A stretch of DNA of 64,000 bases, taken from contig NZ_CP071596.1 of NCBI RefSeq assembly GCF_017357105.1, positions 930,001 through 994,000 on the forward strand, given 5' to 3'. Shown here piece after piece: positions 33,927 to 61,642 of this stretch. How positions within the stretch are numbered: position 1 is the stretch's first letter; every line of letters begins with the position of its first letter. The notes beneath the pieces are model-generated. The model did no database searches. It was given only the letters and a program-made list of their open reading frames with translations, and had not been told where the DNA came from. The stretch is from Natronosalvus caseinilyticus (lineage in GTDB: Archaea; Halobacteriota; Halobacteria; Halobacteriales; Natrialbaceae). A program made the position numbers and the translations under genes.

Positions 33927-33999
33927 GGGACCGTGGGTTAGCCTGGTATACTTCGGGCCTTGGGTGCCCGTGACCCCGGTTCAAATCCGGGCGGTCCCA
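33927..33999 (+). tRNA. tRNA-Pro (anticodon TGG)
   Basis: The acceptor stem GGGACCG pairs with CGGTCCC. The anticodon stem CGGGC/GCCCG encloses loop CTTGGGT, with TGG at positions 34-36. The T-arm is CCCGG-TTCAAAT-CCGGG, the discriminator base is A, and CCA is not encoded. The D-arm is short with a G-T closing pair. The 3' half is the attachment site of the element to its right, and the tRNA is kept intact. Confidence 0.95.
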
Positions 34000-34197: not shown

Positions 34198-37160
34198 CCG
34201 GCGTCCCAGCGCCGCTCGCCGACCTCGGGAAGGTGTTCATCCCGATCCCGCCCGGGGAGAAGGGCACCGATCGCGAGCGCACCGAGGAGACGCTGTTCGA
34301 GGGCGACGATCCCATCCTCGACGCCTACCTCGAGGCGGGCCACAACTACGGGATCGCCGCCCGGGGGGACCTCGCGATCGTCGACGAGGACGAGCCCGAC
34401 GCCCTGGCCGACCTCGTCGATCGCCTCCCCGAGACGCCGTGGCAGGTGTCGGGCTCGCGCTCAAGCAACCACCGATTTCTGCTGGTGCCCGGCCTCGAAA
34501 ACGACATCCCACTCGACGACCCTGAGACGGGCGAAAACCTGGGGCACATCAAGGCGGCCCCGCAGTCCTACGTCGTAGGCCCCGGCTCGCGCCACCCGTC
34601 GGGCAACTACTACGGCCCGCTGCGCGGCCCCGACGAACTCGCCACCATCGACGAGGACGACCTTCGCGACCTCCTCGAACCCTGGACAACCGACGACGAC
34701 GAGCCCGACCACGGCCACGGGACCGGGCGGTGCACCCACGGTGACCGGGATCGGGACGCCGACGTCGGGGTGTACGACGTCCTCTCGCGGCGACGCTACC
34801 CCGAGGGCAAGCGATGCGAACACCCGTTCCACGGCTCGAGCACCGGCTCGAACTTCATGGTAAGCGAGGATGGCGAGACCTTTCGCTGCTGGCGCCACGG
34901 CGCCACGGGCAACGGCCTCCACCTGCTCGGGATGGAACTGGGCGTAATCTCGTGCGGTGACTGGGTGCCCGGCGGTCTCTCGACGGACACCTGGCGCGAG
35001 GTGTTCGACACGGCGCGTGAACGCGGCTACGCCGACCAGCTCCCCGACCCGATCGAGTCCATCGAACCCGAGGACGTTGAACACCACGCCATCCTCCCGA
35101 ACGCACTCCGTCACCACGCGGTCACCGACGGCTGGGACTGGACCTCCGACGGCTACCGCGGCGAGGACGCCCTCACGATTGAGGCCGCCCGCGACCGGAC
35201 CACCGACGCCATCACCAACGCCATCGAGGGGTGTGACGACGTGTTGATCGAGGCGCTGCCGACGATGGGCAAGACCTACGGCGAGGTCGCCGCCACCGCC
35301 GCGGCGGGCGAGCCTACGACGATCCTCACCTGCCGGGGCAACAACGAACAGTACGAGAAACTCGAGGAGTGGTGCGCCGACCACGGCCTCACGGCGAAGC
35401 GTCTCCCGTCGTTCTTCGACAAATGCGACACGGCGAACGGGGAATACGGCGATGACTGGGTCGACGCCGTCGAACGCTGGTACGATCGCGGCGCCACCGG
35501 CCAGGACATCCACAAGCACCATGCCGGCGACCTCCCCTGCCAGAACCAGCCCCACGAGTGCCCGTACACGAGCGCCTGGCGCTTCGACCCCGACGACTAC
35601 GACATCCTTATCGGCCACTACAGCCACGCATACGTCCCCCGGGTGACCGCCGGCCGGACCGTCCTCATCGACGAGTTCCCCGGAGACGACTACGAGACGA
35701 CGCTCGACCTCGGCCTTGAGCGCGCCGTGAGCCGGTTCCTCGAGACGACGCCCGCCCTCCCGTTCGACGACTACACCGACCTCCTCGAGGGGCGTGCCGA
35801 CGACGACCGGCGCGTTGAGGCGCTCGACTGGTTCGACGGCGACGCCGACCGCGATCCCCTTCAGGCGTTCGACGACGGCGGCCACGCGGCGGCCCCGATC
35901 GCCGTCTACGCCCTGCTGACCGGCGACGACCTCGGCAACGGCTGGGAGCGCGCCCTCCTGGGGAACGGCTTCGACGGCCACGTCGCCACGTTCGACCGTG
36001 CTCGGGGCGCGATCCACCTGCTTGAGCCCCCCGCGTTCGAGGCCGCCCGTAACGTCATCGGCCTCGACGGAACGCCCACCGTGACCATGTGGCGCCTGGC
36101 ACTGGGGCGCTCGCGGCTGAATCACCGTCAGGTGCTCACCGACGACGAGCGCGTGGAGTACATCCGGGACGTTCTCGGGCTCCACCTGGTGCGGACGACC
36201 GACGCCGTCAAAGGGTACGCCGCGGGCGAGGCCGAGATTGCCAACCGGGTGACCCTCGACGACGACCGCGCCCTCCTCGAGGGGATCGCCGCCGAACACG
36301 GCCAGCAACCCGCGCTCATCACCACGAAACGCGCCAAGGAACACGTCTACGAGCCCGAGGGCGTCCTCGACCTAGTCACGGAGACGAAACACTACGGCGA
36401 CGTCCTCGGGAGCAACGAGTACGCCAGCACCCGCCTGGGCGCCGTCATCGGCTCGCGCAACTACGGCCCGGACTTCGTCGCGAAGTGGGGCGCCTACCAC
36501 GGGACCGCCGTCGAGCCGCGGTTCCCCGGTGAGGACCTCCCGCTCGAGGCGGGCGTTCGCACCGACTACGGCGACGTCGGGAACGAAATCCGCCAGCATA
36601 TGACCGAACACCAAACGCTCCAGGCGGCAATGCGCTTCGGCCGGGACGGCAACGGCGCCGTCGTCTACGTCCACACCAACACCCTCCCCGACTGGGTGCC
36701 GATCGCTGGCGAGGGGCGCGTCCTCCGCACCCGGAGCCAGGGCGAACGCGAGGTGGTCGCTGCCCTCAACGCGCTCCCCGGGACCGCCTGGACCACCGCC
36801 GAGGTGGCCGCCCACCCGGACGTCAACATCACGCGGCAACAGGTGTTCACTCACCTCGAGCGGTTGTACGACCGCGGCTACCTCGACCGCGAACAGAACC
36901 CCCAGGACGGCCGGGGCTACCGGTGGCTCGACGACGACCTCCACCGAGTGACCGAGCACGGCGAGGTCGAACTCGAGCCGGTCGAACTCGACGACCTGGA
37001 CGAAGTTCGTCAAGTGGTACGTATGAGTACCTATACGTGGAACTTGACGAACTCACCCTCCGAGGGTGCTCCTGGAGCGTGCCAGAGTCCTGGTGTACGC
37101 TCTCTCCCGGGGAGGGCGGGTCGTGAAGGTGGTGATCCACCCGATTCACCCGCCGATTGA
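34194..37160 (+). CDS. Primase-polymerase / helicase replication protein of the element
   Basis: A 988-residue protein. The N-terminal prim-pol (AEP) domain is suggested by LAIVDEDEPDA (residues 60-70), SGSRSSNHRFLLVPG and SYVVGPGSRHPSGNYYG. A CHC2-like finger follows (CEHPFH... FRCWRHG, residues 208-236). A helicase core has Walker A EALPTMGKTYG (353-363) and Walker B TVLIDEFPGD. A winged helix lies near residues 850-920. It probably primes and unwinds the element's own DNA. A Shine-Dalgarno GGAGGTG precedes ATG 34194. The last 60 residues, past a 50-bp palindrome, look unlike the rest. Confidence 0.85.
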   Translation: MTGVPAPLADLGKVFIPIPPGEKGTDRERTEETLFEGDDPILDAYLEAGHNYGIAARGDLAIVDEDEPDALADLVDRLPETPWQVSGSRSSNHRFLLVPGLENDIPLDDPETGENLGHIKAAPQSYVVGPGSRHPSGNYYGPLRGPDELATIDEDDLRDLLEPWTTDDDEPDHGHGTGRCTHGDRDRDADVGVYDVLSRRRYPEGKRCEHPFHGSSTGSNFMVSEDGETFRCWRHGATGNGLHLLGMELGVISCGDWVPGGLSTDTWREVFDTARERGYADQLPDPIESIEPEDVEHHAILPNALRHHAVTDGWDWTSDGYRGEDALTIEAARDRTTDAITNAIEGCDDVLIEALPTMGKTYGEVAATAAAGEPTTILTCRGNNEQYEKLEEWCADHGLTAKRLPSFFDKCDTANGEYGDDWVDAVERWYDRGATGQDIHKHHAGDLPCQNQPHECPYTSAWRFDPDDYDILIGHYSHAYVPRVTAGRTVLIDEFPGDDYETTLDLGLERAVSRFLETTPALPFDDYTDLLEGRADDDRRVEALDWFDGDADRDPLQAFDDGGHAAAPIAVYALLTGDDLGNGWERALLGNGFDGHVATFDRARGAIHLLEPPAFEAARNVIGLDGTPTVTMWRLALGRSRLNHRQVLTDDERVEYIRDVLGLHLVRTTDAVKGYAAGEAEIANRVTLDDDRALLEGIAAEHGQQPALITTKRAKEHVYEPEGVLDLVTETKHYGDVLGSNEYASTRLGAVIGSRNYGPDFVAKWGAYHGTAVEPRFPGEDLPLEAGVRTDYGDVGNEIRQHMTEHQTLQAAMRFGRDGNGAVVYVHTNTLPDWVPIAGEGRVLRTRSQGEREVVAALNALPGTAWTTAEVAAHPDVNITRQQVFTHLERLYDRGYLDREQNPQDGRGYRWLDDDLHRVTEHGEVELEPVELDDLDEVRQVVRMSTYTWNLTNSPSEGAPGACQSPGVRSLPGRAGREGGDPPDSPAD
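37004..37053. repeat. 50-bp imperfect palindrome inside the 3' end of the replication gene
   Basis: The left arm agttcgtcaagtggtacgta (from 37004) and the right arm ending cgtggaacttgacgaact are reverse complements at 20 of 25 positions, centred on gtac. It lies within the coding frame, where long palindromes are not expected by chance. It could be an origin, a regulator site or a transcription stop. Confidence 0.7.
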
Positions 37161-37460
37161 CACCGGATCAAAGCCGTGTTTCCGGCCCGGGTAGAGCGAC
37201 GGCGTCGGCCAAAAACCCACCAAAAACGACCGGAAATGGCAGAGTCTATCGGTTTGGTCAACCCTCGAGCGACTGGCTCTCTTCGTGTCGAATAGAGCGA
37301 GCTCCAGTGATTGATAGTCGACCGCTACTGGGGACCGTTCCGACGGTGAATATCTCATTTCTCACGGATCGTCGCCCGGTTCGACGGATGGTGCCGCCTA
37401 CGATCTATTTGGATATTATTATTAAAGCAGTGGTGTACAGTCGTCGACAATTGTATTAGC
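37161..37460. other. Intergenic region before the Q/N-repeat gene
   Basis: No gene is seen. The last 80 bases are AT-rich and hold the likely promoter (tattattattaaag). Confidence 0.5.
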
Positions 37461-39707: not shown

Positions 39708-40005
39708 ATCGCTCGCGTTCCATCGGTTCGTTTCGCATTTCTCTAGGTGAACAGTCGCTGGCGATGGTCTACAGCTACCGTTGTGGTGTCTCGTCGGCTG
39801 ATCTTCGCGTCTTCGTCTGGACGAATCGCAATCGATGACGACTGTTAGCGTAAAAGATAGTTGTCGTTCGATAACGATCAACCGTGAAATCGTTTCGTCC
39901 AGCCTCACAGGTCGTAATCCCGATTACGGAATTGATGTGGCCTGGCTAACAATATAGGGGTCTATCCTCCATTATCGAGACGGCCATCGGGCCGTGGAAA
40001 ATACA
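39708..40005. other. Promoter region of the giant acidic repeat gene
   Basis: No gene is seen. The AT-rich ctaacaatataggggtct at 39945-39962 is the likely promoter for the gene at 40006. Confidence 0.45.
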
Positions 40006-42633
40006 ATGGGAGAACACAGTATAACGCGAATCGTAACGCTTGCGCTGGTCGTGATGATGATGATCAGCGGGGCGGCTATCGGGATGACTGGCGCAGCAGT
40101 TGCAAACGACTCGGACGACAATTGTCAAGATACGGACCAAAGTGTCGAAGGAGACGTCACTCAGGATCAATACACGGACGGGGACGATAACGATCAACGG
40201 TTGCTCCAGCTCCTCGAGATACTTCTGGGCTCGAACCAAGATATCGAGGACGGGGATGACAACTGTCAGTACGCCGACCAGGACAACGACGTCGACGTCG
40301 ACGCCGAACAGGAAATCGACGGCGACAACAACGTCCAGGACGCCGATCAGGCGACCGACGGTGACGAGGCGAACACGCTCGAGAGCGAGAACGAGCAGAC
40401 GATCGAGGATGGCGACGACAACGAGCAGGACGCCGAGCAAGAACACGAACTCGAGCAGGAGAGCGAGCAAGAGATCGACGGCGACGACAACGAACAGTAC
40501 GCCGACCAGGAGGCCGAACTCGAGAACGAGAACGAGCAGGAGATCGAGGACGGTGACGACAACGAGCAGGAAGCAGAACAGGAGAACGAGCTCGAGCAGG
40601 AGAACGAGCAAGAGATCGACGGCGACGACAACGAACAAGACGCCGAGCAGGAAGCCGAGCAGGAGAACGAGAACGAGCAGGAGATCGAGGACGGCGACGA
40701 CAACGAACAAGAAGTAGAACAGGAGAACGAAGGCGAACAAGAGAGCGAGCAGGAAGTCGAGAACAGCGACGACAACGAGCAGGAGACCGAGCAGGAGTTA
40801 GAACAGGAGAACGAAGCCGAGCAAGAAGTCGAAGACGGTGACGACAACGAACAAGAAGCTGAGCAGGAGAACGAACTCGAGCAAGATAGTGAGCAGGAAG
40901 TCGAAAACGGTCTGCTCGCTGCCTTACTCGGCTTCTCAGACAATGAGCAGGAGACCGAACAGGAAGCCGAGCAGGAGAACGAGGTCGAACAGGAAGTCGA
41001 AGATGGTGACGACAACGAGCAGGAGGCCGAACAGGAGAACGAAGGCGAACAAGAAGTCGAGCAGGAAATCGAGGACGGAGATAACAACGAACAGGAGGCC
41101 GAACAAGAGTTAGAACAGGAGAACGAGGCCGAGCAGGAAGTCGAAGACGGTGACGACAACGAGCAGGAGGCCGAACAGGAGAACGAAGGCGAACAAGAAG
41201 TCGAGCAGGAAGTCGAGGCTGGCGTCGACAACGAGCAAGAGGCCGAACAGGAAGCCGAGCAGGAGAACGAGGCTGAACAGGAAGTCGAAGACGGCGACGA
41301 CAACGAACAGGAAGCCGAGCAGGAGAACGAAGCCGAGCAGGAGGCTGAACAGGAAGTCGAAGCTGGCGCCGACAACGAGCAGGAAGCCGAGCAGGAAGCC
41401 GAGCAAGAGAACGAAGTCGAGCAGGAAGTCGAAGACGGTGACGACAACGAGCAGGAGGCAGAACAGGAGAACGAGGTCGAACAAGAAACCGAACAGGAAG
41501 TCGAGAACGGGTACGACAACGAACAGGAAGCCGAGCAGGAAGCCGAGCAGGAGAACGAGGCCGAGCAGGAAGTCGAAGACGGTGACGACAACGAACAAGA
41601 AACTGAACAGGAGAACGAAGCCGAGCAGGAGGCTGAGCAGGAAGTCGAAGACGGCGACGACAACGAACAGGAGGCCGAACAGGAGGTCGAACAAGAGAAC
41701 GAAGCCGAGCAGGAAGTTGAAGACGGCGACGACAACGAGCAGGAAGCCGAACAGGAGAACGAGGCCGAACAGGAGGTCGAGCAAGAGGCTGAGGGCGACG
41801 ACAACGAACAGGAGGCCGAACAGGAGGTCGAACAAGAGAACGAAGCCGAGCAGGAAGTTGAAGACGGCGACGACAACGAGCAGGAAGCCGAGCAGGAGAA
41901 CGAGGCCGAACAGGAAGTCGAGCAGGAAGCCGACGGTGACGACAACGAGCAGGAAGCTGAGCAAGAAATAGAACAGGAAAACGAAGCCGAGCAAGAAGTC
42001 GAAGACGGTGACGACAACGAGCAGGAAGCCGAGCAGGAGAACGAAGCCGAGCAGGAAGTAGAGCAGGAGGCTGAGGGCGACGCCAACGAGCAGGAGGCTG
42101 AACAGGAAGTCGAGCAAGAGAACGAAGTCGAGCAAGAGGCTGAGGGCGACGATAACGAACAGGAAGCTGAGCAGAAGAACGAGGCCGAACAGGAAGTCGA
42201 GCAAGAGGCTGAGGGCGACGATAACGAACAGGAAGCCGAGCAAGAAGTCGAGCAAGAGAACGAAATCGAGCAGGAGGCTGAGGGCGACGACAACGAACAG
42301 GACGCCGAGCAGAACTCCGACGTCGATCAGGAGATCGAGCAGGAAGCCGACGGTGACGACAACGAGCAGGAGGCCGAACAGGAAGCCGAAGTCGATCAGG
42401 AGATCGATCAGGAAGCCGACGGTGACGACAACGAGCAGGACGCCGAACAGAACGTCGAGGTCGACCAGAACACTGAGCAGGAAGCCGACGGTGACGACAA
42501 CGAGCAGAGCTCGACCAATGAGGTCGAGGTCAGCCAGGACACGACGCAGGAAGCCGAGGGTGACGACAACACCCAGAGCTCCACTTCGAGTGTCAGCGTC
42601 TCGAGCAACCAGTCCCAGAGCGCCTCGAGCTAA
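40006..42633 (+). CDS. Giant secreted Glu-alternating repeat protein (putative acidic beta-solenoid)
   Basis: An 876-residue protein with a Sec signal at residues 1-33. The rest is about thirty repeats of GDDNEQEAEQENEAEQEVED type. Between the GDDN turns every second residue is Glu, and the others are Q, A, N or V. That period of two fits beta-strands with Glu outside and a Q/N/A core, not a heptad coiled coil. The GxxN-x5-Q spacing matches curlin repeats. Two hydrophobic interruptions (RLLQLLEILLGS at 65-76, GLLAALLGFS at 302-311) and a Ser-rich C-terminus (VSVSSNQSQSASS) stand out. A surface fibre or calcium-binding matrix protein is inferred. Confidence 0.8.
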   Translation: MGEHSITRIVTLALVVMMMISGAAIGMTGAAVANDSDDNCQDTDQSVEGDVTQDQYTDGDDNDQRLLQLLEILLGSNQDIEDGDDNCQYADQDNDVDVDAEQEIDGDNNVQDADQATDGDEANTLESENEQTIEDGDDNEQDAEQEHELEQESEQEIDGDDNEQYADQEAELENENEQEIEDGDDNEQEAEQENELEQENEQEIDGDDNEQDAEQEAEQENENEQEIEDGDDNEQEVEQENEGEQESEQEVENSDDNEQETEQELEQENEAEQEVEDGDDNEQEAEQENELEQDSEQEVENGLLAALLGFSDNEQETEQEAEQENEVEQEVEDGDDNEQEAEQENEGEQEVEQEIEDGDNNEQEAEQELEQENEAEQEVEDGDDNEQEAEQENEGEQEVEQEVEAGVDNEQEAEQEAEQENEAEQEVEDGDDNEQEAEQENEAEQEAEQEVEAGADNEQEAEQEAEQENEVEQEVEDGDDNEQEAEQENEVEQETEQEVENGYDNEQEAEQEAEQENEAEQEVEDGDDNEQETEQENEAEQEAEQEVEDGDDNEQEAEQEVEQENEAEQEVEDGDDNEQEAEQENEAEQEVEQEAEGDDNEQEAEQEVEQENEAEQEVEDGDDNEQEAEQENEAEQEVEQEADGDDNEQEAEQEIEQENEAEQEVEDGDDNEQEAEQENEAEQEVEQEAEGDANEQEAEQEVEQENEVEQEAEGDDNEQEAEQKNEAEQEVEQEAEGDDNEQEAEQEVEQENEIEQEAEGDDNEQDAEQNSDVDQEIEQEADGDDNEQEAEQEAEVDQEIDQEADGDDNEQDAEQNVEVDQNTEQEADGDDNEQSSTNEVEVSQDTTQEAEGDDNTQSSTSSVSVSSNQSQSASS
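40380..42560. repeat. Tandem DNA repeats (about 48-72 bp units) encoding the Glu-rich repeats
   Basis: Units such as gacaacgaacaggaagccga and gaacgaggccgagcaggaag recur dozens of times with silent variation. Copy number probably varies by recombination or slippage. It is a coding repeat, not a CRISPR array, because there are no unique spacers. Confidence 0.85.
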
Positions 42634-45261: not shown

Positions 45262-45333
45262 TGACTTCACCTGGATTCGGACGACCGATCCCCGGGCGTT
45301 CCAGCGCCCGGGTGTTCCAGCACCCCGAGGGGA
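45253..45333 (-). promoter_or_regulatory. 81-nt leader identical in both cassettes
   Basis: The sequence is identical, base for base, with 51162-51242. It contains two adjacent hairpins with the same CTGGAA loop and a third before the Shine-Dalgarno sequence. The flanking coding DNA of the two copies has diverged. Confidence 0.75.
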
Positions 45334-45350
45334 TCGGCCATCCTCATTCA

Positions 45351-51143: not shown

Positions 51144-51161
51144 ATGGATGAGGACGGCCGG

Positions 51162-51242
51162 TCCCCTCGGGGTGCTGGAACACCCGGGCGCTGGAACGCC
51201 CGGGGATCGGTCGTCCGAATCCAGGTGAAGTCAATGACGACC
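51162..51242 (+). promoter_or_regulatory. 81-nt leader with twin hairpins, identical to copy 1
   Basis: Hairpin A GGGTG-CTGGAA-CACCC (51170-51185) and hairpin B GGGCG-CTGGAA-CGCCC (51186-51201) are adjacent and share their loop. One stem pair differs in a compensatory way (T-A versus C-G). Hairpin C (51204-51222) follows, then aggtga and ATG 51234. Confidence 0.72.
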
Positions 51243-52781: not shown

Positions 52782-53355
52782 ACCTGAAGGGTTGTTGTCG
52801 CTCCAGATACGTGTACGTTAGCTTGGAACGCCCTGGATTCACGCGTAAGGTATCCATCCACCTCTCGGCCAGATCCTCATCTCGGCGCGAGTGGCGGGTT
52901 CAACGATACTACACTGGTGATGAGGGGGTGCCGAAATCGACTCGACTGTCGGCTCGGTGGCTGAGGTGGTCCTTCAGTGCGTCCTGGAATTTTTATATGA
53001 TGACGTAGCCAGCCCCAGTGATGCGCCACCCCCAGGACGATCTGCTCATCGTCGAAGCGCTCGTCGAGTACGCGGCGTCTGCTCTGGCCTCAAGGTCGAA
53101 CAGCACCCTCATTTCATCTTGCCACCTTTTTCATAACACTCAGAAAAGAGAACACTACAGCAAAAAGATATAGGTTCGCCCCCCCCTTCCCCGAGGTCGC
53201 CTGCTACGTCGAACGGACCTGGTTGGCCTCGACGATCCTATTGCGGAATCAGTTGCCTGCCAACTACTAACAGAATTTTTATGTTGGTTATTATATGTTA
53301 CCGAAAACGGCCGCTAGAGCCCCTATATAATACGTTCTCAATTAGGAAATTCATA
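52782..53355. other. Gene-poor stretch with a possible 50-codon fragment
   Basis: A frame at 53021-53173 (MRHPQDDLLIVEALVEYAAS, preceded by a TATA-like ttttatatga) may be the start of a truncated gene, but its second half is noncoding in character. A C-run (about nine) lies at 53178-53186. The last 150 bases are AT-rich. Confidence 0.4.
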
Positions 53356-53423: not shown

Positions 53424-53558
53424 ATGAGCAGGTACACGACGGTCGGGCTCCGCGCGGGCTCTGACGTCCGATCCCGGTTGTCTCTCTACCGCGACGACAA
53501 CGATCTGTGCAGTCTGCACGATGCGGTCGAGCAACTGCTCAACGAAGCCGGGTACTGA
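53424..53558 (+). CDS. 44-residue ribbon-helix-helix-like protein
   Basis: MSRYTTVGLRAGSDVRSRLS continues LYRDDNDLCSLHDAVEQLLN. An N-terminal strand (YTTVGLR) followed by two helices is the RHH/CopG layout. Its promoter has matching inverted repeats. It may be a copy-control or antitoxin-like regulator; no toxin gene is recognised beside it. Confidence 0.6.
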   Translation: MSRYTTVGLRAGSDVRSRLSLYRDDNDLCSLHDAVEQLLNEAGY

Positions 53559-53589: not shown

Positions 53590-53768
53590 CGACTCGCGCA
53601 TTAAATGGGGTGTGTTGGAGACACACCCCGTGCCGAGTCGAATTAGCATACACCCCGACCGTCTTCCGACGGACGAGACCGACACCGAGTTGGTGTCACT
53701 TTACTCTACAGTCCGCGAGAGTAAAGCCGTTTCGTCGGTTCGGCGGGTTCGGGATCCACATCCGAACC
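53590..53768 (+). ncRNA. Run of five hairpins upstream of the integrase operon
   Basis: Hairpin 1 spans 53590-53640: outer stem CGACTCG...CGAGTCG and inner 9-bp stem GGGGTGTGT/ACACACCCC. Hairpins 2 to 5 are ccgtc/gacgg (53659-53672), gacacc/ggtgtc (53681-53697), ctttactct/agagtaaag (53699-53726) and ggttcgg/ccgaacc (53746-53768). The last ends at the ATG. It is either a structured leader RNA or a DNA recombination/packaging site. Confidence 0.6.
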
Positions 53769-53993
53769 ATGACAAAATCTTCGAACAAACACAACTCGTA
53801 CGAAACGACCGCAGCCAGCTGCGAACTCTGCCCACGTCCCGCGTCAACCACGATCAGCTCAGATGGGTGTGGCCCCATGCTTGTGTGTGGGATCCACGCC
53901 TCATCTCTTGAGGCTATTTCAGAGCCAGCCGCCTCGAACAGCTGGGACCACCCAAGCCAAAAGAACGGGCCTCAGAACAGGTGGGAGCTATGA
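53769..53993 (+). CDS. Small cysteine/histidine protein coupled to the integrase
   Basis: A 74-residue protein: MTKSSNKHNSYETTAASCEL, then CPRPASTTISSDGCGPMLVC, then GIHASS. Cys-x2-Cys, Cys, Cys-x2-His residues suggest a zinc site. Its stop overlaps the integrase ATG (ATGA), so both are probably made together. It could be an excisionase-like or directionality partner, but that is inference. Confidence 0.65.
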   Translation: MTKSSNKHNSYETTAASCELCPRPASTTISSDGCGPMLVCGIHASSLEAISEPAASNSWDHPSQKNGPQNRWEL

Positions 53994-55114: not shown

Positions 55115-55136
55115 GGTTGAAACCCGGGCGGTCCCA
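55115..55136. repeat. attR copy 1
   Basis: The sequence ggttgaaacccgggcggtccca matches the tRNA-Pro 3' end (33978-33999) at 20 of 22 bases, directly after the integrase stop. The inner boundary is likely here. Confidence 0.75.
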
Positions 55137-55141
55137 CTTCT

Positions 55142-55250
55142 GTCGTCGCGAGCAATCCCGCGAGCGACGCCAACGTGAAAAGCCGGATTTGAACCAGGGA
55201 GGAGTTCCGCTCCGACCGTGGTTCACAATCCGGGCGGCCCCATCCTCTTA
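55142..55250. repeat. Right-flank repeat 1, containing attR copy 2
   Basis: The block starts gtcgtcgcgagcaatcccg and ends with an att-like ggttcacaatccgggcgg continuing to catcctctta (55220-55250). It resembles 55871-55978 along its length. It holds an inverted T-arm relic (ccggatttgaacc, 55183-55195). Confidence 0.7.
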
Positions 55251-55456
55251 ATTCGAATTGAGCCATCACACTCTTTCTTTCACCTCCACCAGCGCCGGCC
55301 CTCAACCGACCGGGCAGTATTGGCGGCCTTTACCGTCAAACTCGTGGCGCCCAGCGAGCCCAGCGGATGCTTCGCAAGGCTAACCCGGAGATAACCTCGA
55401 AGCTGTACTCTCCACCACTAGCACTTATAGCACGAGCTGTCGTGTTATACGTTACC

Positions 55457-60058: not shown

Positions 60059-61642
60059 CTAGTTCTCGAAGCGTGCCTGCACGAACGGCTGGACGTCGTC
60101 GATGTCGGAGAGTCGGGAGTCCGAAATGAGGACCGCCTCGGTCTCCTCGAGCGGGACCGAGAGGCTAATTTCTTTGGTGCGGCCGTACCGCCCCTTCGAG
60201 ACGACGACGGCGTTGACGATGCCGAGCATGTCGAGTTCGCTGATGAGGTCGGTGACCCGTCGCTGGGTCAGGATGTCGGCGTCGATCTCGTCGCACAGGC
60301 GCTTGTAGATGTTGAACACCTCGCCGGTGTTGATGCTGTGAACGCCGTTTTTCTCGAGGGAGATGATCGCGAAGAGGACGAGTTTGCTCTGGGTCGGGAG
60401 GGTGCGGACGACCTCGACCACGCGGTCGAGTTCGATCTTGTCCTGGGCCTGGCGGACGTGTTCTTCGACGATCGTCTCGGCCTGGGAGCGCTCGGCGAGT
60501 TCGCCTGCGGTTCGGAGCAAGTCGAGCGCGCGTCGGGCGTCGCCGTGTTCCTGGGCGGCGAAGGCCGCACACAGCGGGATGACGTCCGCAGACAGGGCGT
60601 CTCCCTTGAACGCGACCTCCGAACGGTGCTGGAGGATGTCCCGGAGCTGGTTGGCGTCGTAGGGTGGGAAGACGATCTCCTCTTCCCCGAGACTGGACTT
60701 GACGCGTGGATCGAGGAAGTCCGTGAACTTCAGGTCGTTCGAGATGCCGATGATCGACACCCGCGAGTTGGTGAGTTCCGAGTTCATCCGCGAGAGGTTG
60801 TAGAGCGTGTCATCGCCCGACTTCTCGACCAGTTTGTCGATCTCGTCGAGCATGATGACGACGACGCGTTCGGAGTAGTCGACGGCGTCGAAGAAGACGC
60901 TGTAGACGCGGTCGGTCGGCCAGCCGGTCATCGGCACTTCCTCGAACTCCTCGCGGTCGGCCTCGAGCGAGTCGATCTCCTCGTTCACGTCTTCGATGGA
61001 GTCGAGCGGTTCGTCCTCGAGGGCTGGTGACGCTTCGGCTTCCGTCTCGCTCGAGTTCTCGTTCGTCCAGTCGACGTCGTCTTCGTCCGACCCGTCGACG
61101 CCGTCATCGTCCATCTCGTCATTTGTCTCCTCGAGCGCCGCCCGCATCGACTCCAGTTCCTCGATTCGCTCGTCGATTCGCGCCTCATTCTCCTCGATGA
61201 ACTTGTTGGCGAGCTGGGCGAGCACGCGGTACTGCGTGTCGGTGACCTCGCAGTTGATGTACTCGACGTCACACGGGACGCTGTACTTCTGGGAGGTGCT
61301 CTCGAGTTCCTTGCTGACGAACTTCGCGCTCGCGGTCTTGCCGGTCCCGGTTTTCCCGTAGATCAGGATGTTCGACGGAGTCTCCCCGCGAAGGGCCGCG
61401 ACGAGAATCGTCGCCATCTTGTTGATCTGGTCGCTTCGATGGGGCAGTTCGTGGGGCGTGTACGACGGTCGCAGCACTTCCTTGTTCTCGAAAATCGGTT
61501 CGCCGCTGAGCAGGTCGTCGAACAGCCCCTGATTCGACTCCTCGCCCTCGGTGGCGCTCTCGAGGTCTGCCATGAAGCCAGCCGGCAACTCTCGATCGCC
61601 CGAACGGCCCGAATCCGTGGTATCTGATTTCTCGTCTGACAT
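60059..61642 (-). CDS. orc1: Orc1/Cdc6 replication initiator
   Basis: A 527-residue protein from ATG 61642. Walker A GKTGTGKT is at residues 96-103, Walker B VVVIMLDEIDKL, then sensor and C-terminal winged helix (ADILTQRRVTDLISELDMLG). An 80-residue acidic insertion (160-245) separates Walker A and B, a halophilic feature. It binds origin recognition boxes and loads MCM. Two ORB-like boxes lie upstream in its own 5' gap, so this is likely the initiator of an adjacent origin. Confidence 0.95.
   Translation of the reverse strand: MSDEKSDTTDSGRSGDRELPAGFMADLESATEGEESNQGLFDDLLSGEPIFENKEVLRPSYTPHELPHRSDQINKMATILVAALRGETPSNILIYGKTGTGKTASAKFVSKELESTSQKYSVPCDVEYINCEVTDTQYRVLAQLANKFIEENEARIDERIEELESMRAALEETNDEMDDDGVDGSDEDDVDWTNENSSETEAEASPALEDEPLDSIEDVNEEIDSLEADREEFEEVPMTGWPTDRVYSVFFDAVDYSERVVVIMLDEIDKLVEKSGDDTLYNLSRMNSELTNSRVSIIGISNDLKFTDFLDPRVKSSLGEEEIVFPPYDANQLRDILQHRSEVAFKGDALSADVIPLCAAFAAQEHGDARRALDLLRTAGELAERSQAETIVEEHVRQAQDKIELDRVVEVVRTLPTQSKLVLFAIISLEKNGVHSINTGEVFNIYKRLCDEIDADILTQRRVTDLISELDMLGIVNAVVVSKGRYGRTKEISLSVPLEETEAVLISDSRLSDIDDVQPFVQARFEN

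Follow-up and report, generated by a model that had tools for sequence, protein, structure and literature searches.

What could five hairpins, packed one after another immediately upstream of an integrase operon, be for? The question is raised by positions 53590–53768 of the window (i.e., the whole 64-kb stretch of haloarchaeal DNA analysed here), in which the original prediction had recognised stems of 9, 5, 6, 9 and 7 bp, the first of them enclosed by a bulged outer stem. All five, and the bulged outer stem as well, are indeed found at these places (Table 1). The fifth hairpin, which has two alternative 5′ arms (GGTTCGG at 53737–53743 and at 53746–53752), ends at 53768, and the ATG of the small ORF coupled to the integrase occupies positions 53769–53771, directly behind it, as had been claimed. 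The answer that we favour, and to which we would assign a probability of roughly 0.55, is that the array acts as structured 5′ leader RNA for the operon encoding a small Cys-rich protein and the integrase, with the last hairpin (P3) tuning the start of translation.

The earlier contention that such a density of hairpins exceeds what base composition would yield is borne out by comparison with shuffled sequences: the array folds with −83.8 kcal/mol as opposed to −61.4 ± 4.4 kcal/mol for the shuffles (z = −5.05), none of the 200 being as good, and it contains three perfect stems of at least 7 bp, the shuffles having on average 0.14 and none out of 1000 reaching three. The minus strand of the array gives a similar value (z = −5.64). 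Among 710 segments of 180 nt covering the 64 kb, the array region occupies rank 5 for excess folding; it is rare, though not unique, other stretches of the window folding comparably. At 36901–37170 and at 60301–60480 the folding excess equals or surpasses that of the array.

Table 1. Positions in the window of the hairpins, of the neighbouring genes and att cores, and of two further leaders of the same element
Feature	Position	Strand	Remarks
Left att core, 13 bp	33987–33999	+	CCGGGCGGTCCCA; 3′ end of tRNA-Pro(TGG)
SWIM leader, copy 2	45279..45343	−	near-identical to copy 1; before second SWIM-like gene
SWIM leader, copy 1	51152..51216	+	15-bp P0 around twin CTGGAA-loop hairpins; ATG of SWIM-like gene at 51234
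44-aa ORF upstream of hairpins	53424..53558	+	ribbon-helix-helix-like by eye; no convincing Pfam match
Hairpin 1 with outer stem	53590..53640	+	outer stem with one bulged base
Hairpin 1, inner stem, 9 bp	53607–53629	+	sequence GGGGTGTGTTGGAGACACACCCC
Hairpin 2, 5 bp	53659–53672	+	competes with 5′ arm of P0
Possible closing stem P0	53666..53738	+	encloses hairpins 3 and 4 in minimum free energy fold
Hairpin 3, 6 bp	53681–53697	+	occupies P1 position
Hairpin 4, 9 bp	53699–53726	+	occupies P2 position
Hairpin 5 (P3)	53746–53768; with alternative arm 53737..53768	+	7 bp perfect (8 in another count)
Small Cys-pair ORF, 74 aa	53769..53993	+	first gene of int operon; from sequence
Tyrosine recombinase, SNJ2/pleolipovirus type, 374 aa	53990..55114	+	from Pfam and relatives
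Right att core, same 13 bp	55124–55136	+	CCGGGCGGTCCCA; just past integrase stop

The first gene behind the array shares its last 4 nt with the integrase gene, which starts at 53990. Of its earlier designation as a “small zinc protein”, the ORF and its coupling to the integrase stand, whereas the zinc-binding nature relies on Cys pairs recognised by eye, no Pfam family being matched and the protein search returning weak similarities, the best outside match having E = 9e-4. The integrase itself matches Phage_int_SAM_1 with 41.4 bits (cut-off 22.3) and Phage_integrase with 23.8 bits, under the cut-off of 27.1. Its relatives among the phage records number 12, each with less than 60% identity, and the named ones belong to the pleolipoviruses SNJ2, HRPV9, HHPV4, Humcor2, Harhisp1 and Halfgib1, as well as to Haloferax virus LSV-48N and plasmid pHK2; no viral contig was confirmed to carry the integrase of the window itself. 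Both the combination of a SAM-like with a tyrosine recombinase domain having relatives in pleolipoviruses and the short att adjoining int, taken from the 3′ end of a tRNA, are features that the element shares with those of SNJ2 type, and SNJ2 att sites are short and located at a tRNA according to the available part of a review (PMC8371274), with which the att of the window agrees. An att search with 14 bases came back empty because the core is 13 bp long; its two copies place the array inside an integrated element of ~21 kb in tRNA-Pro, in which the first long ORF encodes a Prim-Pol domain. Some 100 bp beyond the right att, at 55221–55252, there is a second, diverged piece of a tRNA-Pro 3′ end together with the native downstream flank, which may be the mark of an older or second integration.

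Archaeal termination depends on U-tracts, and this bears on the possibility that the array terminates or insulates the small ORF upstream of it. The array does come after the stop of this 44-aa ORF (53558), but no T-run, the mark of an intrinsic terminator, follows any of its hairpins in the sequence 53590–53771, and the relatives having structure over the start codon have other genes upstream. This is the least probable of all the readings considered here, and the “terminator array” envisaged earlier is not supported in view of the missing T-runs.

At the DNA level the array stands by itself. A search of its own genome and of 8 genomes of the genus returned only the array or chance matches of 20–40 nt, and apart from such chance matches no relative was found in 392 genomes of the order, plasmids and phages; furthermore, neither the array stretch nor 15 relative loci gave an Rfam match at the gathering score. 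Since the array has no DNA relatives and therefore offers no covariation test on itself, the leaders of related integrases were examined, the sample consisting of 73 integrase loci after exclusion of two fragments (L040 and L053). Leader windows with z below −2.5 were found in four of the six testable close relatives of the integrase (L024, L025, L027 and L029), located around −450 to −525 relative to the integrase match, L026 being marginal (z = −2.4) and L028 negative, with L030, too short for the test, standing outside the six. Over 33 loci the excess is modest, z = −2.5 being passed by 21 of 226 upstream windows vs. 16 of 297 windows inside int.

A more telling regularity concerns the start codon. 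A loose score for hairpins at the ATG proved too permissive, leaving signal and background unseparated, and a strict count was used instead. Upstream of the 73 integrases the strict count yields 126 hairpins, 13 of which end exactly at an ATG where ~2 would be expected, most of these 13 forming a single homologous family and hence not being independent; a second cluster ends 22–24 nt before the ATG. As a control, a single one of 132 hairpins of the window is flush with an ATG, at 53354, just upstream of the array, whose own last hairpin (7 bp perfect) is below the 8-bp limit of the strict count. Reading the contexts of the ATG hairpins led to two conserved structured leaders, designated families A and B. 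A hairpin GGTCCC...GAGACC flush with the ATG also precedes an int-operon gene in L011, L039, L041 and L075, and in the first three of these it constitutes a second structured start, situated downstream of the family B leader.

In family A a closing helix, P0, surrounds a conserved single-stranded stretch and the hairpin P2 (apex GTGCTGGAACAC), and is followed by P3, which contains the ATG, and by the hairpin P4 within the first codons. In family B, P0 surrounds P1 and P2 and is followed by P3, flush with the ATG, and then by P4, the register of which is ambiguous, a slide by one column pairing better (85.4% vs. 77.1%). In both families the 3′ arm of P0 is at the same time the 5′ arm of P3, so that only one of the two helices can form, and both are possible in 50 of 60 family B and 25 of 39 family A sequences. 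The pairing is supported by covariation. In the larger alignments, which were fitted to the models and are thereby biased towards structure, family A, represented by 39 sequences with 93.7% of the cells paired and 130 double-change cells, has a covariation of 0.423 as opposed to at most 0.074 in slid controls, and family B (62 sequences, 60 of them distinct, 85.3% paired, 187 double-change cells) has 0.310 as opposed to at most 0.086. Alignments made from sequence alone give 0.420 vs. at most 0.095 for family A (14 sequences) and, for family B (10 sequences), 0.208 vs. at most 0.131 with P0 and 0.156 vs. at most 0.120 with P3.

Covariance models of family B (R1) and family A (R2) detect 93 matches in 42 and 31 matches in 25 of 117 genomes, respectively, unseeded R1 members scoring up to 98.8 bits. 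The association with integrases is tight in the case of R2, 27 of the 31 matches having an integrase on the same strand within ~4.3 kb downstream (one has it on the opposite strand and three have none), a proportion that becomes 19 of 23 when the 8 seed loci are left aside. With R1 an integrase is present in 17 of 30 loci with 1.5-kb flanks, and in three (one of them a repeat) of 20 further hand-picked places, mostly without a locus and including one shortened stretch; R1 loci being often devoid of an integrase, family B precedes other genes as well. Indeed, one low-GC haloarchaeal genome contains six scattered, near-identical units (L207–L212) made of a family B leader, a 42-aa ORF and a gene for a 299-aa coiled-coil protein. 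Applied to 246 genomes of the phylum, R1 was positive in 25, without exception members of one and the same order. Of 12 named virus and plasmid loci, seven match R1 or R2 at E = 1e-8 or better: the R1 scores are 115.8 bits for SNJ2, 102 for pHK2, 97.3 for Halfgib1, 70.4 for HRPV9 and 43.9 for Humcor2, whereas with R2 HHPV4 scores 85.6 bits and a Halobacterium plasmid, found by DNA similarity, 107.6 bits. In SNJ2 the leader end given by the model coincides exactly with the annotated start of orf3.

Are these helices made of RNA, and do they represent two states? In the alignments made from sequence alone, the non-Watson–Crick pairs of P0 amount on the coding strand to 39 G-U vs. 5 A-C in family A, a bias which supports this helix as coding-strand RNA, and to 35 G-U vs. 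29 A-C in family B, with little strand bias. The departures are reversed in P3 (1 G-U vs. 60 A-C in family B, 9 vs. 31 in family A), and this surplus of A-C weakens the case for P3 as a strong coding-strand helix in either family; in our reading it would reflect a 3′ arm that is nearly fixed while the strand shared with P0 follows the latter. The computed energies of the P0 and P3 states lie 0.3 to 6.5 kcal/mol apart in seven family members, gaps that are compatible with two states without proving them, and it is possible that the mutually exclusive P0 and P3 of families A and B constitute a translational switch.

The same counts weigh on the idea that the inverted repeats are a DNA operator to which dimeric regulators (wHTH or ribbon-helix-helix) would bind in the int operon's promoter region. 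The lack of strand bias in family B P0 and the equally good folding of both strands of the array would suit an operator, as would the location of the structured stretch, which in pHK2, SNJ2, HRPV9 and Halfgib1 has a divergent regulator gene on one side and the int operon on the other. On the other hand, the stem sequences vary among the relatives with the pairing being kept, the structure crosses the start codon and enters the coding sequence (P4), and the prevalence of G-U in family A P0 points to RNA, all of which makes an operator rather unlikely.

Leaderless mRNAs are common in haloarchaea, a circumstance favouring yet another interpretation, namely that the hairpin before the ATG is a processing signal directing a cleavage that would free a leaderless mRNA starting at AUG. 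Such a cleavage would agree with the hairpin abutting the ATG without a gap, as it does both in family B and in the window, and also with the two alternative start sites of the SNJ2 orf1–3 operon mentioned in the available part of the review (PMC8371274). In family A, however, the ATG is inside P3 and not flush with it, and we regard processing as decidedly improbable.

Still less probable is a DNA structure belonging to the origin, the transfer or the recombination arms of the element. Rolling-circle origins typically contain clusters of hairpins and the att sites indicate that the element is mobile, yet the att cores are found beyond the integrase end, outside the array. Moreover, the available part of PMC13107129 places the origin of SNJ2 at a hairpin lying downstream of orf19, with the replication operon beginning inside int, so that this origin is distinct from the int leader; in the same work orf4–orf10 were deleted, orf3 being kept in the plasmids, by which the leader is not cleanly removed. 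The suggestion of a DNA structure for transfer or replication, made when the hairpins were first noticed, has found no support, and the operator, origin and terminator readings are all less likely than a structured leader.

To return to the leader interpretation, how does the array of the window compare with families A and B? It shares their order, i.e., in the minimum free energy fold a closing stem surrounds hairpins and precedes another one located at the start codon, and the apex of hairpin 1 (GTGTTGGAGACAC) differs by one base from the P2 apex of SNJ2 (GTGCTGGAGACAC), the pattern GTGYTGGARACAC occurring a single time in the 64 kb. With the filters off, R1 scores at best 2.5 bits on the array, which amounts to no family B match, and R2 scores 9.2 bits (E = 0.013 in 3.5 kb, both strands) over hairpin 1 only. 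P0 and P3 of the array coexist at −84.2 kcal/mol, the best fold having −84.3, and overlap only in the alternative register of P3 (−83.2); therefore, there is no exclusive switch in this leader. In addition, no P4 hairpin appears in the fold close after the ATG. Membership in family A or B is ruled out by the failure of R1 and R2, the coexistence of P0 and P3 and the missing P4. Covariation, for which a search in related integrases had been suggested, is present in their family A and B leaders but does not extend to the array, which neither model matches; the “RNA switch controlling integrase” of the original prediction gains from the covarying leaders over int-operon start codons and from the G-U bias of family A P0, and loses from the coexistence of P0 and P3 in the array.

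The best reading is, in our opinion, that of a structured 5′ leader, either diverged or convergent, with which the translation of the small Cys-pair protein and integrase genes would be controlled, the array being real and rare, and probably functional as such a leader. It most likely works like the leaders of families A and B. If, as we infer, the array is transcribed, the hairpins would form in the transcript, P0 would close a three-way junction with hairpins 3 and 4, and P3, abutting the start codon, would set the efficiency with which translation begins; a signal or a binding protein may act upon the leader. The array would then be one instance of a broader practice among haloarchaeal mobile elements, that of placing structured RNA over the start codons of int operons and of some other genes.

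The int operons of pleolipoviruses SNJ2, HRPV9, HHPV4, Halfgib1 and Humcor2 and of pHK2 share with the window the integrase family, an att of ~13 bp located at the 3′ end of a tRNA, in most cases one or more small genes coupled to int, and a structured stretch before the ATG of the first gene. They differ from it in that their leaders match R1 or R2, the leader of the window matching neither, and the window element encodes a Prim-Pol protein. Bacterial riboswitches and protein-autoregulated leaders have alternative helices beside the translation start within a structured 5′ leader; families A and B have such a leader too, but extend into the first codons and belong to archaeal hosts, and a ligand or protein can only be conjectured. 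To our knowledge structured regulatory leaders have seldom been documented in archaea. The leader class of families A and B appears to be undescribed: no description was found in the literature covered, to which the original SNJ2 integrase and isolation papers do not belong, and the available parts of PMC8371274, PMC13107129 and PMC3119063 contain no account of it. A covarying int leader would represent an additional RNA class for Rfam and, being present in the genetically tractable SNJ2 and pHK2, offers a directly testable means of adjusting integrase levels that temperate archaeal viruses may employ; the leader may also govern the timing of element integration, and many haloarchaeal small ORFs may have N-termini shaped by RNA structure instead of protein function.

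The same element contains two further leaders, each preceding a SWIM-like gene. Their twin hairpins carry the family A apex GCTGGAAC, they account for four of the five places at which GGNNGCTGGAACNNCC occurs in the 4.2-Mb genome, and the two copies differ at two stem bases, both changes keeping the pairing; the stem of each relies on coding-strand G-U pairs. A DNA search in 293 genomes returned only these two copies. The recurrence of the same kinds of hairpin within one element favours a shared mechanism, and tentatively we would go as far as to propose that families A and B, together with the array and the twin SWIM leaders as diverged cases, could belong to an undescribed archaeal two-state regulatory RNA, one strand of which would pair either upstream, with P0 leaving the start open, or downstream, with P3 holding it, and that would time pleolipovirus-like integration and be used by other mobile-element genes as well. 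A two-state switch in the SWIM leaders themselves was considered and rejected, the P3 state being ~20 kcal/mol worse than P0.

Elsewhere in the window, 39994–42633 encodes a strongly acidic repeat protein of 879 aa (EQEAEQENEAEQEVEDGDDN...), which accounts for an AT skew of 0.69 at 40–42 kb. Finally, 28201–28375 matches the Rfam family sot0042 (RF02656) with 181 bits; this haloarchaeal RNA, linked to IS605-type elements, is likewise tied to a mobile element but represents another family, its match being at a different place in the window from the array.
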